Below are positions 1,708-12,698 of a DNA stretch of 64,000 bases, one piece after another. Numbering within the stretch: the first letter of the stretch is position 1; each line of letters begins with the position of its first letter. The notes beneath the pieces are model-generated. The model saw only the letters and a list, made by a program, of their open reading frames with translations, was not told where the DNA came from and searched no databases. The translations under genes and the position numbers were made by a program. Source of the DNA: Peptoniphilus pacaensis (GTDB lineage: Bacteria; Bacillota; Clostridia; Tissierellales; Peptoniphilaceae); the NCBI RefSeq assembly GCF_900088125.1, contig NZ_FLQT01000003.1, positions 248,001 to 312,000 of the forward strand, written 5' to 3'.

Positions 1708-1782
1708 CCATCAAACGGCCTCCGCCTAAAGAAGTTTATAGTATTTATCAGCTGAAATTCTCCCCTAACCTCCTATTACTTA

Positions 1783-1831
1783 AATGTAAAATCTCCCTTC
1801 AATAAACTATATTGTTTACCGTAGGGAGATT
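1783..1831 (-). terminator. Terminator after the XRE regulator gene
   Basis: The arms AATCTCCCT and AGGGAGATT pair perfectly (1790-1798 with 1823-1831) around a 24-base loop, and on the minus strand are followed by a short T-rich stretch. The hairpin lies about 20 bases past the stop of the XRE gene. Confidence 0.6.
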
Positions 1832-1851
1832 CTTAGTTTAACTATGTTTGT

Positions 1852-2058
1852 CTAAAAATAGAAAAGATCCTCAAATTTCTTTTCCAAAGCAATGCAAAGT
1901 ATCAAAGCTAACTTCGCGGTTGGGTTAAATTGACCAGTTTCAATTGAGCTGATTGTATTTCTTGAAACACCGACCTCGTCCGCTAACTGTTGTTGTGAAT
2001 AACCTTTTTCTTTCCTGACTTCTTTTAAATGATTTTTGAGAATTAGTTTATCATCCAT
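1852..2058 (-). CDS. Small XRE-family HTH transcriptional regulator
   Basis: This 68-residue protein is almost entirely one Cro/CI-type helix-turn-helix: YSQQQLADEVGVSRNTISSIETG spans about residues 19-41 (first part YSQQQLADEVGVSRNT). Such stand-alone proteins usually bind and repress their own promoter. It lies 9 bases after a small membrane-protein gene, in an operon arrangement often seen in Firmicutes. The upstream promoter is flanked by two copies of AAACTTGGCA, the likely binding sites. The region is AT-rich compared with the neighbouring housekeeping genes, which suggests acquisition. The target beyond its own operon is unknown. Confidence 0.85.
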   Translation of the reverse strand: MDDKLILKNHLKEVRKEKGYSQQQLADEVGVSRNTISSIETGQFNPTAKLALILCIALEKKFEDLFYF

Positions 2059-2067
2059 TGTCCATCA

Positions 2068-2391
2068 CTACTTTAATGTTATAAGGTTAGCTACAAATAA
2101 GGCGATTCCTATAATTGCCATAAGCGTCCCCATTAACAATTGCTTTCTTTCTTTTAATTTTGCATATTTTACAAGTTCTTTTGTTGCTTCAATACTAAAA
2201 TAAATACTTAGTATTCCATAATTAAAAGAATTGAAGAAAAAAGCTTCAATTCCAAATAAGGTTGCAGCAACTGCCAATCCCATTTGGCTGGAAACCTCAC
2301 CTGCTTTGTTAAAAATATCAACCATCATCTCATCGTGATGTTTATACTCCTCGCGGCTTCTTTCTAAAACTTCCTCTCTCTTCATATTCAT
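2068..2391 (-). CDS. Small membrane protein of the DUF6442 type
   Basis: This 107-residue protein has a charged N-terminal segment rich in Arg, Glu and His (about residues 1-26) followed by three hydrophobic segments near 34-55, 57-68 and 86-104. No catalytic motif is visible. The composition and the pairing with a small XRE regulator resemble proteins listed as DUF6442, a family of unknown function; I make this match from memory of the pattern. It is the first gene of the two-gene operon, with a good AAAGGAG ribosome site. Its role may be linked to sensing for the regulator, but this is a guess. Confidence 0.6.
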   Translation of the reverse strand: MNMKREEVLERSREEYKHHDEMMVDIFNKAGEVSSQMGLAVAATLFGIEAFFFNSFNYGILSIYFSIEATKELVKYAKLKERKQLLMGTLMAIIGIALFVANLITLK

Positions 2392-2407
2392 TCTCCTTTA
2401 TTCTTTT

Positions 2408-2458
2408 TGCCAAGTTTACTTGATATTTGTATTATATCGTGCCAAGTTTTATTGTCAA
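2408..2458 (-). promoter_or_regulatory. Promoter of the XRE operon with paired direct-repeat operator sites
   Basis: On the minus strand TTGACA (2453-2458) and TATAAT (2431-2436) are separated by 16 bases. The 10-base word AAACTTGGCA occurs twice, at 2440-2449 inside the spacer and at 2408-2417 downstream, 32 bases apart. This is a natural layout for autoregulation by the XRE protein encoded downstream. Confidence 0.65.
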
Positions 2459-2639
2459 TACATTAGAATAAATATTTCAGCTTTTTAAAGATTGTCAATG
2501 ATACCCCCCTTGAACCCGTTTTTTATCCGTGAGAGGGCAGCACCGTTGGTGGGGAAATCAGTCGTAGAGATTAAAACTCCCCTTAAAAATTTATTGTACT
2601 AAAACTGCTTACGCTCATTCTATCAACTTTAATCTCCAC

Positions 2640-2696
2640 TTGACTTTTTTCTTAGAAAAAATATAATTTAGTTAGAAAGTATGATTTTCTAACTAA
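2640..2696 (+). promoter_or_regulatory. Promoter and inverted-repeat operator of the toxin-antitoxin module
   Basis: TTGACT (2640-2645) and TATAAT (2662-2667) are 16 bases apart. Directly after the -10 box lies an inverted repeat with perfect 11-base arms, TTAGTTAGAAA and its complement (2668-2678 and 2686-2696), separated by 7 bases. Antitoxins of the AbrB/MazE fold usually repress their own operon through such a site. The stretch 2460-2639 upstream holds nothing else recognisable. Confidence 0.7.
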
Positions 2697-2708
2697 GGAG
2701 GTGTTGTT

Positions 2709-2966
2709 GTGTTAGTTGAACTAAAAGCTAAATCACAAGTTACTATCCCAAAAGACATCGTAAATTCCATGGAATTAAATCAAGGCGATCAATTTGAAGT
2801 CATAGAAGATAACGGTAGGATTGTACTTGTTCCGGTTGCAATCTATCCGGAACACGTCATAAAAAATTTAAAAGCTGAAGTAAAAGAAATTAAAAAATCT
2901 ATAAAAAATGGAGAAAGGCCAATCTTTGATTCCATTGACTCTCTATTCGAGGAGTTAGATAAATAA
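2709..2966 (+). CDS. AbrB/SpoVT-fold antitoxin
   Basis: This 85-residue protein starts with a swapped-hairpin DNA-binding domain: LKAKSQVTIPKDIVNSM (about residues 5-21), a GDQFEV turn and the strand IVLVPV. The C-terminal half is charged and helical and is likely to bind and neutralise the toxin. The start is GTG, chosen because an AAGGAG site ends 8 bases upstream. Its stop codon overlaps the toxin start by one base (TAATG), so the two are translationally coupled. An inverted repeat in the promoter is the expected autorepression site. Confidence 0.85.
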   Translation: MLVELKAKSQVTIPKDIVNSMELNQGDQFEVIEDNGRIVLVPVAIYPEHVIKNLKAEVKEIKKSIKNGERPIFDSIDSLFEELDK

Positions 2967-3232
2967 TGTCCTATAAAATTACTTATTCGAAAGCCTTTAA
3001 AAAACATTACAAAAAACTATCCGATACTGAAAAGAAGCAAACGAAAAAGAAACTTAAATTTTTCGTAGAAAATCCCACCCATCCATCTTTAAGAACTAAG
3101 AAAATACAAGGTACAGATGGCATATGGGAATCTTCCATGAATATGGATATTCGCATTATTTGGTTCTATGAAAATAATGAAATAGTGTTTCTTTTAGATA
3201 TTGGACACCATGATATCCTAGACAAGTTTTAA
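2966..3232 (+). CDS. RelE/YafQ-like toxin (type II toxin-antitoxin)
   Basis: This 88-residue basic protein has the RelE/ParE layout: an N-terminal helix rich in Lys (SKAFKKHYKKL), a second helix, then beta strands containing WESSMNMDIRIIWFY and a final LLDIGHHDIL. Proteins of this type cleave mRNA at the ribosome or, in the ParE branch, poison gyrase; which applies cannot be told from sequence alone. It overlaps the antitoxin stop by one base and is followed by a strong terminator, so the module is compact and complete. No frame damage is seen. Confidence 0.82.
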   Translation: MSYKITYSKAFKKHYKKLSDTEKKQTKKKLKFFVENPTHPSLRTKKIQGTDGIWESSMNMDIRIIWFYENNEIVFLLDIGHHDILDKF

Positions 3233-3276
3233 AAATATTACTATACTAAAAACGCGAATTGAAAACGAAAGTTTTG

Positions 3277-3308
3277 CGGGTGATGCATGTATGCGTCACC
3301 CGTTTTTT
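3277..3308 (+). terminator. Terminator of the toxin-antitoxin operon
   Basis: CGGGTGATGCAT pairs with ATGCGTCACCCG (3277-3288 with 3291-3302) with one G-T wobble, followed by six Ts. It lies 45 bases after the toxin stop. Confidence 0.85.
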
Positions 3309-3683
3309 ATATCTCTATATTTTTTAAAGCCCTACTATGAAGTCTAAAGATAGGCTGAATTGAGTAATTCATCTCAACGACAATCTTCTCCCAAGATTCA
3401 AAACAAAGATATCTTTTTTCTAATACTGCTTGAAGTTCTTTATCTTCAATCTTTTTTATTGTTCTTACGATCTCTTTCTTTAAATCCACCAACTTTCTGT
3501 ATTCTTATTGATTTCTCCTTGATCGTCTACAATCTTAATCATAGTATCCTCAAGTTTATATGATCTCTACTAGGACTCTTAGGCATATCTGATAAGGTCG
3601 ATGTCGCTTTTGTTGCGAGCGAATTGAGTGATTTAACTTACGCCAATGTACTGTTAATTGTTTTATCTCTTGACTTGTCAATT
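3307..3683 (-). pseudogene. Decayed phage regulator of the DUF1492/sigma-region-4-like type
   Basis: Read on the minus strand, pieces in different frames line up as one protein. A start-like LTSQEIKQL lies near 3680-3655, then LATKATSTLSDMPKSPSRDH in another frame, then IKIVDDQGEIN, and finally VDLKKEIVRTIKKIEDKELQ leading into RYLCFESWEKIVVEMNYS, with the last piece an open 61-codon frame (3307-3492). The word order (SDMPKSPSRD, then a LVDLK.EI helix, then RYL...SWE.I...M.YS) is that of small phage transcription regulators of the DUF1492 group. At least two frameshifts separate the pieces, so the gene is dead. It marks former prophage DNA next to the toxin-antitoxin module. Confidence 0.6.
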
Positions 3684-3689
3684 CAAGGC

Positions 3690-3714
3690 AAAAAAACCGC
3701 CCGAAGGCGGCTTT
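3690..3714 (-). terminator. Terminator-like hairpin, left copy of a 25-bp direct repeat
   Basis: On the minus strand CCGCC-TTCG-GGCGG is followed by a T run, a strong intrinsic terminator. The same 25 bases occur at 9951-9975, where they end the P-type ATPase gene. The two copies are in the same orientation and bracket about 6.2 kb of AT-rich DNA. Confidence 0.7.
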
Positions 3715-3794: not shown

Positions 3795-3812
3795 TATTTA
3801 ATTTTTATAATT

Positions 3813-3902
3813 TTCTGTCTGTTCTAAAACCATATCAAAAATTTCTTCGCTCCATTGAGGAGGATATCCGTTTTTATAAAGCGGGAAAATGATCGGCTCA
3901 TC
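3813..3902 (-). pseudogene. Probable 3' end of a type I restriction gene (hsdR remnant)
   Basis: Immediately after the stop of the MptD-like gene the minus strand stays open for about 29 codons, reading EPIIFPLYKNGYPPQW and then SEEIFDMVLEQTENYKN before a stop. The pattern YPP..S.E.F..V.EQ.EN.K resembles the extreme C-terminus of type I restriction HsdR subunits; the match is from memory and the piece is short. It has no start or ribosome site of its own. With the hsdM remnant at 8961-9614 on the same strand, it suggests the transporter operon replaced the middle of an hsdM-S-R operon. Confidence 0.45.
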
Positions 3903-4511
3903 TTATTTGAGCTTGCTCTGCTGAGTGCTTTTCTCAAAGAACTTATTGTTGATGAATACTCCGTAAAATCCGGCTAACAAGCACAGCACAACATTAACGG
4001 CAGCAGCTATCAAAATCACTTCATTTGTATAGGCGGCAACCATTTGTGCTGCTTGTTCTGGAGAAAAGGTAGATGACATATATTTTACTAAACCTTCGAC
4101 GCCTAAAATTTTTGTTAAAAGAATGCTGTGCATCGAATCGGTAAACATGGCAGCGCTAAAAGCAATGGCGATGCGTCTGCTATTATCGTACTTTCCGATA
4201 ATCAGCTCGTAGACAATCCCTGCAATCAGAGTAATCGGAATCATGATCCCATAACCTAAAATTGCATATACCAACCCAAGCACAGCCCAAAAGAGAAGCG
4301 CTGTGCCACGCTTTTGTACTTTTCGAGCCGCAATCACAAAGGTCGGTCCGATCATAAAAGCGGCAAACCCGGCTGAAATGTAGAGGGCAGCCATGCCTAA
4401 AAGTCCCGTCAGCATACTGATTCCAAAGGAAACAACACAGCCAATTACTGCCAATACGGCGATCTGTACAATATTTTTTAGTTTTTCATCATAAAATTTC
4501 TTTCTGAACAT
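3903..4511 (-). CDS. MptD-family putative ECF transporter S component
   Basis: This 202-residue integral membrane protein has about six hydrophobic segments, near residues 16-36, 38-58, 72-92, 94-110, 118-134 and 164-186, as expected for the substrate-binding S subunit of an energy-coupling-factor transporter. The overall pattern fits proteins annotated as the MptD-family S component; its ligand is unknown. It is the last gene of an operon with two ABC half-transporters and a TetR regulator, and no ECF T subunit is nearby. It may supply substrate to the ABC pair or use a distant shared ECF module. The gap of 65 bases from the upstream gene is AT-rich. Confidence 0.7.
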   Translation of the reverse strand: MFRKKFYDEKLKNIVQIAVLAVIGCVVSFGISMLTGLLGMAALYISAGFAAFMIGPTFVIAARKVQKRGTALLFWAVLGLVYAILGYGIMIPITLIAGIVYELIIGKYDNSRRIAIAFSAAMFTDSMHSILLTKILGVEGLVKYMSSTFSPEQAAQMVAAYTNEVILIAAAVNVVLCLLAGFYGVFINNKFFEKSTQQSKLK

Positions 4512-4576
4512 TTAATTTTCGACAACATCAGGTACAATCATTTTTTTGTCGAAGATGTTGTTGTTAGTTCCAAACT

Positions 4577-6313
4577 CTAATTTGCGAATCTCCAGCTTTC
4601 CGCCTTGCTTCTCGATTCGATAAGATCTCGATAAAGACCTCCTTGCAGCATCAATTCATCATGTGTACCGCACTGCTCAATCCCTGCTTTGTTCAGTACC
4701 AAAATCCGGTTTGCATTACGGATCGTCTTCAAGCGGTGCGCGATCATGATGACGGTTTTGTTTTGAGTAAGGGCTTCAATAGCTGCTTTCAGCTTGTCTT
4801 CGTTTTCCGGATCAACATTTGCAGTAGCTTCATCAAAGATGATAATCGGTGCATCTTTCAGCATTGCCCTGGCAATGGAAATGCGCTGTTTTTCTCCGCC
4901 GGAAAGACTTATTCCACCTTCTCCGATCATGCTCTGATAGCCATCGGGCAAGGCGGAAATAAAGTCATGGCACTGAGCCTTTTTTGCCGCCGCAATCACA
5001 TCATTGCGGGTAGCATTTGGGCATCCGAATTTAATGTTGTTTTCAATCGTATCGGCAAAAAGATAGACATCTTGGAAGACCATCGAAATATGATTCATGA
5101 GATTTTCGAGGGAGTAATCTTTTATGTTCTTTCCTCCAAGACGAATCTCTCCTGAATTGACATCCCAAAAGCGAGAGATCAAATTGCAAAAAGTTGTTTT
5201 CCCTGAACCAGACGGCCCTACGATAGCCGTCATTGATCTTTCGGGGATATAGCAAGACACATTATTTAAGATTGGCTTTTCGCCATAGGCAAAGGAAACA
5301 TTTTTAAATTCAATATCGTGTTGCTGAAGTGCATCATTGATATGACCTTCCGGCATATCTTGCATTTGATTGACGTAATCATAAGAATCCATCGCATTGT
5401 CAATGGTTCTAAGCATGGCCATAGCACTACCAGAAGCCAATAAACTGTTAAAAATCACAAAACTGGCAACCAGCGTCATGATGGTATAGTCCAAAGCAAG
5501 CTCTCCCGAAAAGTAGCATGAAAGTGCTGTGGCAATCATAACCGAAATCGTGATCGCAATGATGATTTTCAGCAGTACCGTGTAAGGTGTAACGGCCTTT
5601 TCAAGGCTCAACGTCGATTTTTTTGTTTCTTCAAAACTTTGATCCAACTTGTTGTTATTTTGTCCGCCCAAGTTATAGGACTTGATGATCTGCATACCTT
5701 GCAAGGTTGCCAGCACTTCTTTCGTGAGATCATTTTGTACAACAGAAACTCGATCCGAACTCTTTTTAGATCTTTGCTGCATTAAAGCGGCCGCCGCCAA
5801 GAAAATCAAAGACCCAGCGATAGCAATGAGTGCAATTTTCCAATGCAGCATAAAAAGGGACAGGATAAATACCACGGTTACAAGCAGACCGCCGAATACC
5901 ATAATAAAAAGTGTGGGCACCCAAGTTTCGAGACTGTCCAACTTTGTCGTCGCAATGGCCGTTAAATTTCCTAAGCTAAAATCATTGAAAAAGCCCATTG
6001 GCACTTTTTTGATTTTTTCTCCCATAGCGATACGTTTATTTGCGGCTGTAAAATAGCCGGCATGCGTTTGCTTAAGCATGGAATTTTTCTTAGAAATAAT
6101 GATGCCCAGTAAGGAAAGCAATAAGAATGCGCTGCACATACCAATCGTCTGCCACGTAATTTCCTGCTTTATAATCGCCGCAATGACCAAATAGATGGCC
6201 ATAAATTGAAAAACGTTAAAAATCGCGCCCAAAAAACTCCAGATCACCGAGGAGCGAATCATTCCTTGCTCACGCTCTGCAAATTTCCATAACTTCTTAA
6301 ATGTATTAATCAT
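4577..6313 (-). CDS. ABC half-transporter, fused membrane and ATPase domains (second subunit)
   Basis: This protein of 578 residues has an N-terminal six-helix exporter-type membrane domain (about residues 15-310) and a C-terminal ATPase with VGPSGSGKTT, LSGGEKQR and IIIFDEATANVDPE followed by the IAHRL switch. All catalytic motifs are intact. The ATG at 6313 is preferred over an upstream in-frame ATG at 6337 because GAGGTG lies 6 bases before it. It overlaps the preceding ABC gene by 8 bases, so the two are almost certainly co-translated as a heterodimer. Half-transporters of this fold include exporters and siderophore importers (IrtAB, YbtPQ), so direction is not decided. Confidence 0.88.
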   Translation of the reverse strand: MINTFKKLWKFAEREQGMIRSSVIWSFLGAIFNVFQFMAIYLVIAAIIKQEITWQTIGMCSAFLLLSLLGIIISKKNSMLKQTHAGYFTAANKRIAMGEKIKKVPMGFFNDFSLGNLTAIATTKLDSLETWVPTLFIMVFGGLLVTVVFILSLFMLHWKIALIAIAGSLIFLAAAALMQQRSKKSSDRVSVVQNDLTKEVLATLQGMQIIKSYNLGGQNNNKLDQSFEETKKSTLSLEKAVTPYTVLLKIIIAITISVMIATALSCYFSGELALDYTIMTLVASFVIFNSLLASGSAMAMLRTIDNAMDSYDYVNQMQDMPEGHINDALQQHDIEFKNVSFAYGEKPILNNVSCYIPERSMTAIVGPSGSGKTTFCNLISRFWDVNSGEIRLGGKNIKDYSLENLMNHISMVFQDVYLFADTIENNIKFGCPNATRNDVIAAAKKAQCHDFISALPDGYQSMIGEGGISLSGGEKQRISIARAMLKDAPIIIFDEATANVDPENEDKLKAAIEALTQNKTVIMIAHRLKTIRNANRILVLNKAGIEQCGTHDELMLQGGLYRDLIESRSKAESWRFAN

Positions 6314-8024
6314 TTTCTTCACCTCGCATGGCCGCACTCCACAATTCTTGGTAAACCGGAGAATCTTTTAATAGTTCATCGTGTGTTCCGTGATTTTCAA
6401 CATATCCATCATGGATTACAAATATTTGATCCACATCTGCAATGGTTTTCAGTCGATGGGCGATAATAATGAGCGTTTTGCCTTTTACCAATGTGGCGAT
6501 GGCATCTTGCAAAATAGCTTCATTTTCTGGATCGATATAGGAAGTGGCTTCATCCAAAATGACAATCGGTGCATCTTTGAGCATGGCGCGTGCAATAGAG
6601 ATGCGTTGGCGCTCACCGCCGGAGAGATGCCCGCCACCTTCTCCGGCAACCGTTTCATAGCCTTGTGAGAGCTTCATAATGAAATCGTGGCAGCCCGATT
6701 TTTTAGCGATTTCTATAATTTCCTCATCCGTTGCATTTTTTTTGCCGATGCGAATATTATCTTTGATGGAAATATCAAACAAATAATTGTCTTGAGATAC
6801 ATAAGAAATAGCATCCGAAAGCTGTTCTAAAGGCATATCCTTGAGAGCTATGCCACCAATTGTTATGGTGCCACTATCGGTATCCCAAAATCCGGCGAGG
6901 AGCTTTGCAACGGTCGATTTCCCTGAGCCAGAATACCCGACGAGTGCATTGACACTACCTTCATTGATGTGCAGATTGACATCCTTGATAACCTGTTTGT
7001 TGTCATCGTAAGAGAAATTCACGTGATCGAAAGTGATGTCACAGCGTGAAATGTTTTGTGTACCGGTTGCGTGGGATAACTCTTTTGAGTTGAGAACTTT
7101 TTCAATTTCACCGGCAATGGTTTTGATGCGACCCATATCGTCCTCATAAGACATCACCTGCATGATATTTGAGATTGTGCCAAACGATAAAATAATCAAC
7201 ATCAAAAGATGAGCGCCGCTTAGGCTACCTTGCATACAGAAGAAAAGGCCAAACGGAATGATGGTTAAAATACCCATCGGTGCAAGCGACATGCTCACCG
7301 CATAATCGTTGTTGTTCAAGCCCATCCACTTGCAGTAATAATCTGCTTTGGCATAAACATTATCGCTGTATTTTTTATAGGATGTATCGCCTTGATTAAA
7401 AGACTTAATGACTTCGATGCCGTTGATATATTCCACAATTGAGTTGTTCATGTCTTGACCAATTTTGACTGCTTTGGGAAACATTTTAGGCATGCGCTTC
7501 ATCGGGCCGGCCATAAAAAACATGCCGATCACAAGAGGAACCAGTGCCAAGAGCGAAACGCGCCAATCGAGTACAAACATGTAAACAAGAAGTAAAACCG
7601 GGCCAACAATATTAGCGGTCATTTCAGGAATCAGGTGAGCCAGGGTTGTCTCCATGCTGTCAACTTGATTCACGATGACATCTTTTAGCTTTCCTGTGCT
7701 TAAATTCAAAATGTTTCCTAACGGCATTTTGAAAAGTTTGTCCATGATATCTCGCCTGATTTCACACAAAGCACCATAGGTCGCCGTATGAGAAATCGTG
7801 GTGGAAATACCCATAAAAACTTCTTTTGCGCACAGCAGCGCGAGAATACTGAGGACTCCTTTAGTATAAAAAGCAAAATCTGTATTCCCTGCAATGAGGG
7901 CAATGATCATTTTGCTCAAGAGCACATAGGTAAAAAGTCCTGCCAGTACACCCAAAACGGCAAAAAGAACCGAGAAAAAGTAGCCGGTCTTATTTTTGGC
8001 GATGTACTTTTTCAATAAGTTCAT
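6306..8024 (-). CDS. ABC half-transporter, fused membrane and ATPase domains (first subunit)
   Basis: This 572-residue protein has the same order as its partner: six-helix membrane domain, then an ATPase with VGYSGSGKST, LSGGERQR, VILDEATSYIDPE and IAHRL. Both nucleotide sites of the pair look competent. The start at 8024 (MNLLKKYIAKN) is chosen over an ATG 36 codons upstream because AAGGAGG lies just before it and the extra residues look non-coding. It is the second gene after the TetR regulator and overlaps the downstream ABC gene by 8 bases. The substrate is unknown; the S component downstream hints at a small vitamin- or metal-ligand-like molecule. Confidence 0.88.
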   Translation of the reverse strand: MNLLKKYIAKNKTGYFFSVLFAVLGVLAGLFTYVLLSKMIIALIAGNTDFAFYTKGVLSILALLCAKEVFMGISTTISHTATYGALCEIRRDIMDKLFKMPLGNILNLSTGKLKDVIVNQVDSMETTLAHLIPEMTANIVGPVLLLVYMFVLDWRVSLLALVPLVIGMFFMAGPMKRMPKMFPKAVKIGQDMNNSIVEYINGIEVIKSFNQGDTSYKKYSDNVYAKADYYCKWMGLNNNDYAVSMSLAPMGILTIIPFGLFFCMQGSLSGAHLLMLIILSFGTISNIMQVMSYEDDMGRIKTIAGEIEKVLNSKELSHATGTQNISRCDITFDHVNFSYDDNKQVIKDVNLHINEGSVNALVGYSGSGKSTVAKLLAGFWDTDSGTITIGGIALKDMPLEQLSDAISYVSQDNYLFDISIKDNIRIGKKNATDEEIIEIAKKSGCHDFIMKLSQGYETVAGEGGGHLSGGERQRISIARAMLKDAPIVILDEATSYIDPENEAILQDAIATLVKGKTLIIIAHRLKTIADVDQIFVIHDGYVENHGTHDELLKDSPVYQELWSAAMRGEEND

Positions 8025-8097
8025 ATCAAAAAACCTCCTTAGTAAATGAATGAAATGCGGAAATTGATGGAAGATTTTAGAGTCCGGAAACTTCCGC

Positions 8098-8709
8098 TTA
8101 CTGAGAAGTCGAACGAGTAAAATAACCTTCAAGCATGGATACCAAGTGCTGTCTGTTCTTTAGAAAATTTTCACGCGTATCTAAAATTTCACAGGATAAC
8201 AAGCTTGCATTGATGAGATTCGTTACAAATTCATAGTCATCATCAGTAAGCAATCCGCAGTCGTACCCATTCATAAAATGCTTAAAGTAAGTAATCGAAT
8301 CCCTCTTGAGTTTTTCATATAATGCGTTAAGCTGTTCATTTTTCTTAATCTCACCAAGAAACATGACATAGATAGGCGTAAAAGGATTATTCGCCAACAT
8401 TTTATCGACGACAACTTCAGCCAAGATATGTGGTGTAAGCTTGTTCCCCATATGTTGAACCGTGTTTGTTACCGTCGCTTCACGCATCCTGCTTCCTCTG
8501 TCCATAATGTCGTAGAGGATTTCTGCCGTATTTTTGTAGTAGTAGTATAATCCGCCGGCTGATAAACCGGATTTTTCACGAACATCATCCATCGTCGTAT
8601 TGTTAAAGCCCTTAGAAGAAAAGAGTGCCATAGCAGCCTTTTGAATGTCTTCTTTACGCATTTCCGGATCTAATCGTTCTCTGACCATCATTTTCCTCTC
8701 CTTGACCAT
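8098..8709 (-). CDS. TetR-family transcriptional repressor
   Basis: The N-terminal helix-turn-helix domain (about residues 15-65) contains KAAMALFSSKGFNNTTMDDV and SAGGLYYYYKNTAEIL, typical of TetR. The remaining 140 residues form the variable ligand domain. Starts at 8709, 8691 and 8688 are all possible; the latter two follow AGGAGAGG closely. A 32-base perfect palindrome lies between the promoter and the gene, so it most likely represses its own transcription and that of the ABC and S-component genes that follow about 70 bases downstream on the same strand. The inducer is probably the transported compound. Confidence 0.9.
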   Translation of the reverse strand: MVKERKMMVRERLDPEMRKEDIQKAAMALFSSKGFNNTTMDDVREKSGLSAGGLYYYYKNTAEILYDIMDRGSRMREATVTNTVQHMGNKLTPHILAEVVVDKMLANNPFTPIYVMFLGEIKKNEQLNALYEKLKRDSITYFKHFMNGYDCGLLTDDDYEFVTNLINASLLSCEILDTRENFLKNRQHLVSMLEGYFTRSTSQ

Positions 8710-8717
8710 TATCTTCC

Positions 8718-8777
8718 TCTCATTACCGAGATTAATCTCGGTAATGAGAAATTACCATAGACTAACTTATTTGTCAA
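8718..8777 (-). promoter_or_regulatory. TetR operon promoter with a 32-bp perfect palindromic operator
   Basis: On the minus strand TTGACA (8772-8777) and TAATTT (8749-8754) are 17 bases apart. Immediately downstream, 8718-8749 form an uninterrupted perfect palindrome whose centre reads CCGAGATTAATCTCGG. It covers the expected start of transcription, so a bound TetR dimer would block initiation. Confidence 0.85.
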
Positions 8778-8816
8778 GAATTTTATGCGGTAATGGCAAT
8801 TCACCTAATGTTGCAT

Positions 8817-8862
8817 AAAAAAAGAACCCTGCCAGATAGAACAAGATTCTTTTAACGCGTAA
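8817..8862 (-). terminator. Weak terminator upstream of the TetR promoter
   Basis: On the minus strand AAGAATC and GGGTTCTT can pair across a 17-base loop, followed by seven Ts. It would stop read-through from the hsdM remnant into the transporter operon. Confidence 0.35.
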
Positions 8863-8911
8863 TGCTTCTTAGTTTAATTTTAGGATGAACATCGCTGTGA
8901 GCTTATTGATT

Positions 8912-8960
8912 TTCGTACCACATACTCAATTTTCGTACCCCTTAGTATTAGGTTCGTACC
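8912..8960. repeat. Three TTCGTACC repeats spaced 20-21 bp at the hsdM break point
   Basis: TTCGTACC occurs at 8912-8919, 8932-8939 and 8953-8960, starting 20 and 21 bases apart. Multiple short direct repeats with helical spacing are typical of transposase-binding ends, for example in the IS21 family. They directly abut the point where the hsdM reading frame ends, so they may be the end of a lost insertion element. Confidence 0.45.
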
Positions 8961-9614
8961 CTAAGCGGCGATGCCGTTAAAATGTATCAAATATGGTGTT
9001 TTGTTCTCATATACAACTCCGTCATATGGTTCGATTAGCTCAGTCAATAGTCTTACAACGCTTGAAGGTGTATAAAATTCACCATCTTCCTTTGTTCCTG
9101 ATGCTGCATATATTTGTAAAAAATATTCGTAGACTCTTCCGATCAAATCTTCTTCATGGAATCTATCTCCGTTTATCTTATTTATCTCATCGATTAGACT
9201 TTTAATTTTACTTGCCGGAGCTCCTAAAGTAGCGTACAAATTTTGAGGCAAAGTTCCTTTTAGGGAAGGATTGTCCTCCTATATGTCTTTCATTGCTGTA
9301 TCTATTTTTATTGCTATATCATCTGCCGATGCATTTTTAACTATGTAACTCCATCTGGATGTTTCATTTAGATAATAAACACTGTCAGCATGATAAGTGG
9401 CCGGCATCTCTCTTAGCATGAATAAATCAGGATGTTCTTCTTCAATTTGTTTTCTTCTTGTTTCAAACTTATCTCCTGCAAACTTTAAGAAAACTAATCC
9501 TATTACAGCGTCTCTATTTTTTTCAGTACTTCCATATTCTCTTAATGATACTCTGCAATTCCATAGAACTGATTCTAAGGATAATTCCTTAGTTTTATCT
9601 TTATTTTTTGCTAT
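8961..9614 (-). pseudogene. hsdM: Truncated hsdM, type I DNA methyltransferase subunit
   Basis: The minus-strand frame reads as the N-terminal half of HsdM: SLESVLWNCRVSLREYG, then DAVIGLVFLKFAGDKFE, a stop, then SLKGTLPQNLYATL, GRVYEYFLQIYAASG and GEFYTPSSVVRLLTELIEPY. It is broken three ways. The expected ATG is ATA (9612-9614) behind a good AAAGGAG site, an in-frame TAG lies at 9279-9281, and the frame leaves the family after GVVY, just before the expected SAM-binding DPxCGSGG and NPPF motifs. The last 14 codons are unrelated sequence running into TTCGTACC repeats. A working methylase cannot be made. Confidence 0.8.
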
Positions 9615-9950: not shown

Positions 9951-9975
9951 AAAAAAACCGCCCGAAGGCGGCTTT
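9951..9975 (-). terminator. Terminator of the P-type ATPase, right copy of the 25-bp repeat
   Basis: CCGCC-TTCG-GGCGG plus a T run on the minus strand, directly after the ATPase stop. It is identical over 25 bases to 3690-3714. Confidence 0.9.
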
Positions 9976-9977
9976 TC

Positions 9978-12698
9978 TTATTTGTTCTTTAAATCCCCCA
10001 CGTGGGTTTGTTTGAAGCGAATCATTTTTTGAATTTCGCCGATGACCAAGGGGATCAGGGCGGAGACGAGGACGATGGCCCAGTCGATCACGTTCAGGTC
10101 CGTCATGTGGAACAGCTCTTCCAGGAAGGGAATGTAGAGAACCACGAGGACCATGGCCAATGACAGGAGCACGGCTTGGTTCAGGCGCTTGTTGGTGAAG
10201 AAACCCATTTTAAAGAGGGTGTCGTCGATGCTTCTCGAGGAGAAGGAGCGGAACAGTTCGCTGAAGACCAAGGTGGAGAAGGCCATGGTGCGGGAGTAGA
10301 CGAGGCCGTCGCCGTCCATGCCGTGGGTGGTGAGGGCGTAGTAGTACACGCCCAGGGTGGCCGCCGTAATGGCAAGGGATTGAATGATCAAGGTGATGGT
10401 GACGTTCTTGTCCAAAATCGGTTCCTTGGGATCCCGCGGCGGTTCAAACATGGTTTCCTCTTCGCCTTTTTCCACGCCGAGAGCCAATGCCGGGAAGGAG
10501 TCCGTGACTAAGTTGAGCCACAGGAGCTGAATGGGCAAAAAGGGCGTGGGCAGGTTCATGATGATGGAGAGGAAGACCACCAGCACTTCCCCGATGTTAC
10601 AGCTTAAGAGGAAGGTGACGAATTTTTTAATATTGGCGTAGATAATTCGCCCTTCTTCCACGGCATTGACGATGGTGGCGAAGTTGTCGTCGGTTAAGAT
10701 GACATCCGCCGTGTTTTTCGCTACGTCGGTGCCGGTAATACCCATGGCGATGCCGATGTCCGCCTTTTTAATGGCCGGAGCGTCGTTGACGCCGTCGCCG
10801 GTCATGGCGGCGATCTCGCCGTTTTCTTTCAGGGCCGTGACGATCTGTACTTTATTTTCAGGGGACACGCGGGCGAAGACCCGGGTGGTCTTGACGATTT
10901 CCCGAATTTCTTCCGGGGTCTTGTCGTTTAGCTCTTCCCCCATCATGGCCGCATCGCCTTCCCGCAAAATGCCCAGCTCTTCGGCGATGGCCTTGGCGGT
11001 GAGAAGGTAGTCCCCGGTAATCATGACGGGGACGATGCCGGCGTTTCGGCATTCTTTAATGGCGGCCTTTACTTCCGGACGGGCCGGGTCGATCATGCCG
11101 GTGAGGCCGACGAAGACCATGTCCCGTTCGTTTTCTTCCGTGGAAGGATCCTCGGGCATGGCGTCGTAATTTCTAAAGGCAAAGGCCAACACGCGCAGCG
11201 CCTCTTGAGCAAAGGCGTTGTTTTGTTCCAGTATGGCCTTTCTGTCGGCTTCGGTAAGCTCCACAATGTCCCCGTCTTTAAACAGGTACTTGCAGTTTTT
11301 CAAAACCACGTCCGGCGCGCCCTTGGTAAAGGAGGACACCTTGTTTTCGAAGAAATTTTCGTGGAAAGTGGACATCATCTTGCGATCGGAATCGAAGGGA
11401 ATTTCGCCGATGCGGGGGAACTCCCCTTCCAGCTCTTCTTCCTTGATGCCCAGCTTGCCCGCCAGAGTAATGAGGGCGCCTTCCGTGGGATCGCCTAAAA
11501 TGCTGTGGCTGCCGTTCTCCTCGATAAGGTCGGCATCGTTGGTCAAGGTGGCGATGGAAGACAGGGTCTTCAGCCCGTTGACGTCGTCGAGGGTAATGGG
11601 CTTGCCGTCCAGGGACAGCTCCCCTTCCGGCGCATAGCCCGTGCCGGAGACGTCCATAATCTTGCCGTCAAGATAGACTTTGGTGACGGTCATTTCGTTT
11701 TGGGTCAAGGTGCCCGTCTTATCGGAGCAGATATAGGTGGTGGTCCCCAAGGTTTCCACGGCCAAGAGCCGCTTCACGATGGCGTGGCGCTTCGCCATAT
11801 TGCCCATGCCCATGGAAAGGACGATGGTGACGATGGCGGGCAGGCCTTCGGGAATGGCGGCCACGGCGAGGGACACCGAGGTCATAAACATGCGCAGGGT
11901 GTCGTGGCCGTAGAGCTTGCCGACGATAAAGACCACGGCGCAGACGGCGACGACGAGAATGCCCAAGGTCTTGGACAGGCCCGCCAACTTCTTTTGCAGC
12001 GGCGTCTGCTCTTCTTCCATGGTGGAGAGGGTGGTGGCGATTTTGCCGATTTCCGTCTCTTCTCCCGTGGCGGTGACGATGCCCTTGCCCCGACCGTAGG
12101 TAACTATGGAGGCGGAGTAGGCGTAGTTTTCTCTGTCGCCGATGCCCGCATCTTCTTCCAAAGTGACGCGAGCGTCCTTTTCAACGGAGACGGATTCCCC
12201 GGTTAAAGACGACTCGTCGATCTTTAAATTGGTGCTTTCGATAAGGCGCATGTCCGCCGGCACGATGTCGCCGGTTTCTAAAACCACCAGGTCCCCGGGC
12301 ACTACGTAGACGGAGTCGATTTCCACGGGACGGCCCCCGCGAATCACCTTCACCGTGGGGGAACTCATTTTCTTTAAGGCGGCAATGGCTTCTTCCGCCT
12401 TGCCTTCCTGCACGATACTCAACACGGCGTTCACGATGACGATGGCGAGTATGATGATGGAATCCACCATCTCGCCGACGACGCCGGAAATCACTGCGGC
12501 GATCAACAGAATAATGATCATGGGGTCGAGGAATTGTTCCGCCAGCTTCTTGGCGAAGGGCTTTCCTTTCTCTTCCTGCAGTTCATTGCCCCCGTACTTT
12601 TCCAGACGTTTTTCCGCATCTTCCGGGGCGAGCCCCGTGGTGTCGTTGGCGGATAGCTCCTCCAACACTTCCCGGGCACTCATTTTGTACCAATCCAT
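9978..12698 (-). CDS. P2-type cation-transporting ATPase (calcium/manganese type)
   Basis: This 906-residue membrane pump has the complete P-type order: N-terminal actuator segment, LTGES (actuator loop), PEGLPAIVT in helix M4 (ion binding), the phosphorylation site SDKTGTLTQNE, a nucleotide-binding domain, TGDGVNDAPAIKKAD hinge, and a C-terminal block of hydrophobic helices. It resembles the SERCA/PMCA branch. A yybP-ykoY leader lies upstream; members of that riboswitch class sense manganese, so Mn2+ export is as likely as Ca2+ transport. It is a single-gene unit ending in a strong terminator. The start has an AGGAGG site. Confidence 0.92.
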   Translation of the reverse strand: MDWYKMSAREVLEELSANDTTGLAPEDAEKRLEKYGGNELQEEKGKPFAKKLAEQFLDPMIIILLIAAVISGVVGEMVDSIIILAIVIVNAVLSIVQEGKAEEAIAALKKMSSPTVKVIRGGRPVEIDSVYVVPGDLVVLETGDIVPADMRLIESTNLKIDESSLTGESVSVEKDARVTLEEDAGIGDRENYAYSASIVTYGRGKGIVTATGEETEIGKIATTLSTMEEEQTPLQKKLAGLSKTLGILVVAVCAVVFIVGKLYGHDTLRMFMTSVSLAVAAIPEGLPAIVTIVLSMGMGNMAKRHAIVKRLLAVETLGTTTYICSDKTGTLTQNEMTVTKVYLDGKIMDVSGTGYAPEGELSLDGKPITLDDVNGLKTLSSIATLTNDADLIEENGSHSILGDPTEGALITLAGKLGIKEEELEGEFPRIGEIPFDSDRKMMSTFHENFFENKVSSFTKGAPDVVLKNCKYLFKDGDIVELTEADRKAILEQNNAFAQEALRVLAFAFRNYDAMPEDPSTEENERDMVFVGLTGMIDPARPEVKAAIKECRNAGIVPVMITGDYLLTAKAIAEELGILREGDAAMMGEELNDKTPEEIREIVKTTRVFARVSPENKVQIVTALKENGEIAAMTGDGVNDAPAIKKADIGIAMGITGTDVAKNTADVILTDDNFATIVNAVEEGRIIYANIKKFVTFLLSCNIGEVLVVFLSIIMNLPTPFLPIQLLWLNLVTDSFPALALGVEKGEEETMFEPPRDPKEPILDKNVTITLIIQSLAITAATLGVYYYALTTHGMDGDGLVYSRTMAFSTLVFSELFRSFSSRSIDDTLFKMGFFTNKRLNQAVLLSLAMVLVVLYIPFLEELFHMTDLNVIDWAIVLVSALIPLVIGEIQKMIRFKQTHVGDLKNK

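Follow-up and report, generated by a model that had tools for sequence, protein, structure and literature searches.

A 64,000-nucleotide stretch of the Peptoniphilus pacaensis genome (hereafter the window) holds on its minus strand the 5′ part of hsdM, the methyltransferase gene of a type I restriction operon, followed by a transporter operon and the last codons of hsdR. This arrangement very probably goes back to the insertion of a phage into the DNA encoding motif I of hsdM, with subsequent deletion, decay and exchange between species, the phage having used a subfamily of recombinases that docks on methyltransferase motif DNA. The initial annotation had read the locus as a restriction operon whose core was swapped for a regulated transporter operon. 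The pieces that it named (hsdM 5′ part, TetR-ABC-ABC-MptD genes, hsdR end) are all real, as judged by Pfam and TIGR matches and by relatives, with corrected boundaries. They lie on one strand in the stated order, and an inverted repeat (terminator) lies 3′ of the hsdR tail. Entry did take place in a type I operon, which has since lost its middle part. The swap itself is not borne out: the right junction is a site-specific insertion at a GA dinucleotide and the left one is a deletion that cuts ecfT, the fifth gene of the cargo.

The hsdM remnant comprises a match to HsdM_N (9282–9614, minus strand, PF12161, E 1.2e-10) and the start of N6_Mtase (8964–9278, minus strand, PF02384, positions 2–52 of 311, E 3.5e-13). 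It stops at ..EPYDGVVY, directly before motif I, where the nearest intact HsdM relative (contig C330 of genome G144, 60% identical) runs on as DPCCGSGGMF. The ATA start and internal TAG reported initially were both found to be lesions: ATA (9612–9614) aligns with ATG in genome G006, and in place of the TAG a glutamate codon is found in G002, G005 and G006, all of the same genus, two of which have TGA elsewhere. At the other end, a 34-residue piece matches the T1RH-like_C domain (PF11867, positions 299–327 of 329) with an E value of 4.3e-5, under the curated cut-off. Its last 27 residues also terminate long HsdR frames of 1,057 (G035), 1,143 (G057), 1,111 (G002:C26) and 1,073 (G144:C330) amino acids. 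The comparison with HsdR proteins proposed initially thus returned a match, and the piece described as 29 codons of hsdR does contain the HsdR C terminus, of 27 codons only, its first residues being cassette DNA (ecfT codons 1–7 in another frame). The tail is matched in 15 of 130 genomes of the family, and G144:C330 carries on one strand the best intact relatives of both remnants (58% identity for the HsdR tail). The list of open reading frames between 3801 and 9614 contains no frame for the catalytic part of HsdM with motif I, for HsdS or for the helicase part of HsdR. The window genome has one further HsdM, with a full N6_Mtase match. Judging from their recurrence at 98–99% identity in G002, G005 and G006, the remnants and their junctions are not due to chance.

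The cassette begins with a 107-nt end sequence, which was searched for in the 130 family genomes. Twenty-four copies were found in 14 of them, in 18 distinct contexts; the copies always begin at GA or one base off, and the host flanks differ. Outside the genus, Kallipyga gabonensis (G012), G041 and G049 carry only the cassette, from 3881 to about 9008, at 98% identity. Their flanks diverge at the tetR end and the operon continues at the other end. In K. gabonensis, this end and this cargo stand at one border of a 54.6-kb prophage that encodes two large serine recombinases (LSRs) and splits the gene of an MmeI-like methyltransferase at motif I. Both gene halves and both GA cores are present. 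The left host half contains MmeI_N and MmeI_hel and ends with MASLKFL; the right half begins with DPAAGSGNFL. The left attachment site (attL) reads ..KFL followed by GA and the 107-nt end, and the right one (attR), 54.6 kb away, reads ..GGAATA-GA followed by TCCTGCTGCTGGAAGTGG, which encodes DPAAGSGNFL. The prophage of G049 has the same two ends at a site that is not in a methyltransferase gene, and comparison of the two prophages gave the other element border, ..TTAAATTGTATCAAATACAGTGTCGGAATA-GA. The GA core is identical at attL and attR of both, and the two attachment arms form an inverted repeat around it. In G006, a rejoined site of attP type (L062) lies between two tandem elements. From these comparisons of sequence, the 107-nt end of the window is one arm of a serine-integrase attachment site. 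Ends of an insertion sequence or of a Tn7-like element had been suspected from the GGTACGAA repeats and were rejected, as the inverted attP arms and the recombinases account for the end. In contig C3 of G006 (L072–L073), tandem elements of types C and B, both decayed, have an intact attP between them.

The K. gabonensis element encodes a terminase, portal protein, major capsid protein, tape measure protein, holin and endolysin, as a temperate phage with a siphovirus-type tail would; none of these is found in the window copy. Both prophages are laid out as the operon, then the two recombinases (541 and 588 amino acids), then the phage genes. Both recombinases of K. gabonensis (P0002 and P0003) consist of Resolvase, Recombinase and zinc-ribbon domains, and neither is present in the window. 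Two recombinases each were found in G012, G049, G145 and G043, the last with an additional partial copy. For the recombinase pair, CcrB was the best NCBIfam match (E 3.5e-40 and 8.4e-46), scoring 138 and 157 bits where the cut-off is 900. Recombinase a, at 94–97% identity, and the whole cargo were also found in Atopobium minutum and Actinotignum urinale (Actinomycetota), in drafts where contamination is possible. As Kallipyga belongs to the Bacillota, the element would span two phyla, with the same caution. Searches of plasmid and phage records returned nothing beyond ABC-transporter similarity. The A. minutum genome has three recombinase loci; at L137, the ecfT gene of a type A cargo is interrupted by the end of a type C element.

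Insertion at motif I was examined in the element's own family and around related recombinases. With the attP-type site L062 excluded, 5 of the 17 distinct chromosomal flanks of the family are methyltransferases cut at the Asp codon of motif I: the hsdM of the window clade, the MmeI-like gene of G012 and G041, the HsdM genes of G049:C2 and G145:C2, and an HsdM-like frame of G169 (by motif only). A scan with recombinase a provided 159 loci, at least 79 in genomes and at least 80 on viral contigs, with 54–100% identity; some of the viral contigs derive from the same genomes as the genome loci. A regular expression for the segment preceding motif I matched 15 times, with 14 true N-terminal halves (13 distinct) and one spurious match, L267, which is not a methyltransferase and was dropped from the count. 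All 14 are broken after V or I and Y or C, at GA, and none is intact. A regular expression for motif I yielded seven C-terminal halves, each starting at Asp behind a non-methyltransferase leader with TTGTATCA ending in GA.

A profile of the attachment arm gave 41 distinct attL flanks among the 159 listed loci, of which 36 were scanned; L130 and L131 (no long frame) and L142, L167 and L261 (too short) were left out. Arm matches were dropped when they did not start at GA, had E above 0.25 or began past model position 4, as were the short flanks L176, L219 and L233 and the duplicates L215, L217 and L262. Methyltransferase hidden Markov models (HMMs) matched 24 of the 36 at E ≤ 0.01, a fraction biased by the training of the profile: N6_Mtase 17, MmeI 2, type III 2 (PADLOC), RlmL-type 2 and PglX of BREX-1 (bacteriophage exclusion) 1. 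The Pfam and PADLOC tallies name no members; type III probably corresponds to L168 and L246, and the second MmeI to L140. Seven more flanks were recognized by motif only (L275, with E 0.1, L143, L213, L231, L218, L247 and L156). Five scanned flanks are not methyltransferases (L132, L137, L159, which is attP-like, L283, which is VirB4-like, and L285). Outside the training sites, 11 flanks by HMM and 7 by motif were found among 23 scanned. On the attR side, matches above E 0.1 were dropped, which removes the non-methyltransferase L180; 11 of the 12 distinct flanks (7 of the 12 being training sites) read D/E-x-x-C-G and the remaining one is attP-like. Related recombinases sit in genes for RlmL, BREX PglX and type III Mod (L248, L229, L168 and L246). 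The type III Mod genes are entered at DPPY rather than at motif I, with similar DNA.

At the methyltransferase sites, the left flank has T at −5 in 32 of 34 and T at −3 in 26 of 34, and the right flank has strong CC, TG(Y) and GG-GG bases. Elsewhere, T at −5 is the only conspicuous base; the logo of these other sites holds 22 true ones, since L041 and L057, which are methyltransferase sites repeating L129 and L133, were filed among them. This pattern fits a recombinase that would read a short degenerate DNA signal supplied by the codons of motif I. The subfamily would recognize T-n-T-W-Y / GA / YCC-n-K-C-n-TGY-GG-n-n-n-GG, which is DNA encoding the S-adenosylmethionine (SAM)-binding motif, and genes of unrelated restriction, BREX and RNA methyltransferases would therefore constitute one common docking site. 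The view that the restriction locus served as an entry site for cargo is correct for the window; entry is not tied to this locus, as the same codon is used in many methyltransferase genes.

The history of the locus may be reconstructed as follows. As comparison with K. gabonensis shows, a temperate phage entered hsdM at the GA that opens the Asp codon of motif I and split the gene in half. It carried two LSRs, with a six-gene transporter cargo between them and the attachment site. The two junctions suggest that a deletion then ran from codon 7 of ecfT into hsdR, of which it spared only the last 27 codons, and that it eliminated the remaining cargo together with the recombinases, the phage genes, attR, the 3′ half of hsdM and hsdS. 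The remnants decayed species by species (ATA, TAG or TGA), with TetR-ABC-ABC-MptD kept open in the window, and the block would finally have passed between species. A fixed hsdR breakpoint used by a second integrase was considered and rejected, since the lone hsdR tails of other genomes begin at different points. Such 3′ tails, with no long frame before them and variable start points, were seen at L292, L293, L298, L299, L301 and L302.

The scar is common to four species of the genus, including that of the window. In G002, G005 and G006, the block from 3691 to about 9980 lies between the same genes, and the start-codon, TAG and TGA lesions vary among the species. All four genomes sharing the locus have restriction remnants on both sides of the cassette; the transporter operon in this place without restriction genes, the alternative raised initially, was not encountered there. 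The identity with the three genomes is 98.2–98.8% for the hsdR tail, 97.7–98.5% for the hsdM remnant and 99.3–99.5% for the first ABC gene, and the tetR/end part is 95.3% identical in G006. The flanks diverge more (fni 86.8–95.7%, ATPase gene 89.4–94.9%). As the block is 98–99% identical while its flanks are 87–96% identical, exchange of the block between species appears to be the simplest reading. In G001 and G004 the whole block is absent and fni directly follows the ATPase gene, with a single copy of the terminator. One terminator in the empty loci and two around the block suggest how the restriction operon itself may have arrived. The neighbourhood differs in the other two members of the genus, G003 and G007. 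Two more copies of the 107-nt end, decayed and accompanied by B and C cargo, occur in the window genome, and none of its three copies was seen to adjoin a complete recombinase.

Several points weigh against phage insertion at a methyltransferase motif. The window copy has no recombinases, phage genes or attR, so that its prophage origin rests on comparison, and the left junction fits one deletion or several. In the wider set, 7 of the 41 attL flanks are not methyltransferases (L130, L131, L132, L137, L159, L283 and L285), a further 3 are too short to be assigned, and 13 methyltransferase sites were part of the training set of the arm profile. In the accessible part of their study, Durrant et al. 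report that LSR targets overall are not enriched within or near anti-phage genes (PMC10083194). The targeting might be only apparent, a low-specificity recombinase with a TnT../GA preference being merely tolerated in restriction genes. The many other sites, 12 of 17 in the element's own family, and the weakness of the bases common to them agree with this, as does the existence of a multi-targeting LSR clade, described in the same accessible text (PMC10083194). Yet the matches fall on one codon, in phase, across unrelated methyltransferase families, with strong CC, TGY, GG and GG bases on the attR side, which renders merely apparent targeting unlikely.

The cassette could also be a mobile unit of its own, like a transposon or a gene cassette, with one fixed and one variable end and a secondary link to prophages. 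Most copies consist of the 107-nt end, the cargo and a piece of recombinase gene, both recombinases being intact in 4 of 18, and the end is common to three cargo types. However, shortened copies end at different points within the same recombinase gene, as deletions from a larger element would, neither a transposase nor a second fixed end was seen in the cassette copies, and the end is half of an LSR attP; we regard an autonomous cassette as quite improbable. A direct swap by homologous recombination, in which a circular transporter fragment replaced hsdM3′-hsdS-hsdR5′ in one event, fits the final structure taken alone and the travel of the block between species as a unit at 98–99% identity. 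It was rejected as an account of the locus, and is given hardly any credence, because the right junction falls precisely on the GA core used elsewhere by the recombinase and the left junction interrupts ecfT, a gene that G012, G041 and G049 have in full.

Phage insertion at motif I may be compared with known systems. Large serine recombinases are found in prophages such as A118, inserted in comK. The serine-integrase prophages (PHROG 95) resemble the present elements by their recombinase domains, inverted attP arms, 2-bp core and insertion within a gene; known ones mostly use one gene, whereas the present subfamily uses a codon common to unrelated methyltransferases. Staphylococcal cassette chromosome elements with CcrA/CcrB likewise have two adjacent LSRs, but the target and attachment sites differ and the CcrB score is far below the cut-off. 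In the accessible text on Tn1806-like integrative and conjugative elements (ICEs), three serine integrases are described and genes for hsdM, snf2 and an Eco57I-type methyltransferase are split (PMC12942858). Tn1806 itself lies in hsdM of Streptococcus pneumoniae, and the streptococcal ICESag16, 57, 139, 167 and 220 are Tn1806-like (PMC12942858, PMC3055811, PMC4701971); streptococcal triplet elements enter hsdM, mutT and traG (PMC4701971). The likeness, as far as these partial texts go, is that serine integrases split several methyltransferase genes (hsdM/YeeA type, snf2, Eco57I type) (PMC12942858, PMC3055811, PMC4701971). In contrast to the three integrases, conjugation genes and TGGG-GGGA/GGGT or GGG borders given there, the present elements are phages with a pair of recombinases and a GA core that use a single codon of motif I, and the genes examined in the K. 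gabonensis element are phage genes; the TGGG-GGGA/GGGT border repeats were not found at the element borders, which consist of the GA core. Motif I is not named as an integration target in the accessible literature examined on streptococcal ICEs or LSRs, supplements and most subscription papers being outside the search. Methyltransferase genes are thus already known as targets, and a codon-level target across several methyltransferase classes appears to be new within this literature.

A broader proposal, which we hold at even odds, is that a clade of serine integrases, mostly phage-borne, evolved to read the DNA of SAM motif I (D/E-P-x-C-G). This would give a docking site in nearly every bacterium and lysogeny in two phyla, and would disarm restriction or BREX at integration without self-restriction where the methyltransferase is needed for cutting, the cargo being kept as the phage decays. 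If so, the DNA encoding a conserved protein motif would serve as a universal attachment site and every integration would disable a defence-related methyltransferase, so that a single step would connect phage integration with the loss of restriction and with a broad host range. It would also offer a ready set of attachment sites for genome engineering and offer a possible origin for many "orphan" half hsdM genes and solitary hsdR tails, a truncated hsdM beside unrelated cargo being possibly a phage scar. In the window, an odd junction would become an ordered chain of insertion, deletion, decay and exchange among species.

The cargo of the window is cut in its fifth gene and has lost the sixth, ecfA. 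In G012, G041 and G049 the operon runs on with ecfT (244 amino acids, CbiQ-like) and ecfA (an ATPase of 482 amino acids). Among the energy-coupling factor (ECF) components, S is present in the window and T and A in G012; the window copy has neither a complete T nor an A. The TetR-ABC-ABC-MptD frames stay open in the window, and the MptD gene is frameshifted in G012. Three cargo types (with TetR, a second TetR-type regulator or AraC) have a common layout of an ATP-binding cassette (ABC) pair and ECF S, T and A. Four of the 24 copies are of the window type, contig ends truncate another 2, and 18 have six genes (including G012 with its frameshifted MptD). As the six genes are kept in 18 copies, and both recombinases are whole in only 4 of these, retention suggests that the cargo may be useful to the host, with the caveat that the cargo adjoins the end used as search query. 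For both ABC proteins of the window, the best bacterial half-size PDB match is YbtP (6p6i_A), with IrtA, Sav1866 or MsbA close behind; the best NCBIfam match is MsbA, under the cut-off. The cargo may import a metal-siderophore complex, a tentative assignment in which the direction of transport is a prediction. The equibactin locus of ICESe2 (eqbH-L), in the accessible part of its description, similarly has a YbtPQ-like ABC pair and a three-part importer (PMC3672683); there, eqbHIJ import iron and eqbKL may export (PMC3672683). The present cargo differs by the absence, in the lists of open reading frames, of siderophore synthesis genes beside it and by a TetR or AraC regulator rather than DtxR.

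Table 1. Features of the restriction remnant and transporter cassette in the window
Feature	Position	Strand	Basis
hsdM remnant, N-terminal ~200 codons, ATA start, TAG at 9279–9281	9009–9614	−	PF12161 and PF02384 matches
GA crossover core, first two bases of the motif I Asp codon	9007–9008	−	Comparison of attL and attR in G012 and G049
107-nt element end, attL arm, GAGAACAAAACACC..TATTTGATACATTTTAACGGC with three GGTACGAA repeats	8902–9008	−	24 copies in family genomes
32-nt perfect inverted repeat upstream of tetR, likely operator (predicted function)	8718–8749		Self-match on the opposite strand
TetR-family regulator, cargo gene 1	8098–8709	−	PF00440, E 1e-11
ABC half-transporter 1, cargo gene 2	6306–8132	−	PF00664/PF00005
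ABC half-transporter 2, cargo gene 3	4577–6337	−	PF00664/PF00005
MptD/Trep_Strep ECF S component, cargo gene 4	3903–4511	−	TIGR02185, above its cut-off
First 7 codons of ecfT (MSRSFSR), cargo gene 5, cut here	3881–3901	−	Comparison with G012, G041 and G049
Deletion junction ecfT′/′hsdR	3880–3881		End of cassette homology with G012, G041 and G049
Last 27 codons of hsdR, stop at 3798–3800, one base common with the cassette side	3801–3881	−	PF11867 C terminus
25-bp direct repeat (terminator), left border of the dead hsd block	3690–3714		Exact copy at 9951–9975
25-bp direct repeat, right border of the dead hsd block	9951–9975		Exact copy at 3690–3714

The locus is flanked by a P-type ATPase gene (9978–12698) and by fni (651–1673). 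A second HsdM in G002:C26 (L114) ends just past DPCCG, a few bases beyond the motif I Asp. In G144:C374 (L118), a different though related arm (GACCAAACAACTACAAATATGATACA) interrupts another HsdM at the codon used in the window. Within the window, about 1.9 kb (1760–3690) comprising a small helix-turn-helix gene, a membrane protein gene and an AbrB/RelE-like pair (2709–3232) is absent from G002, G005 and G006, and part of this segment is found again at about 90% identity in other genera.

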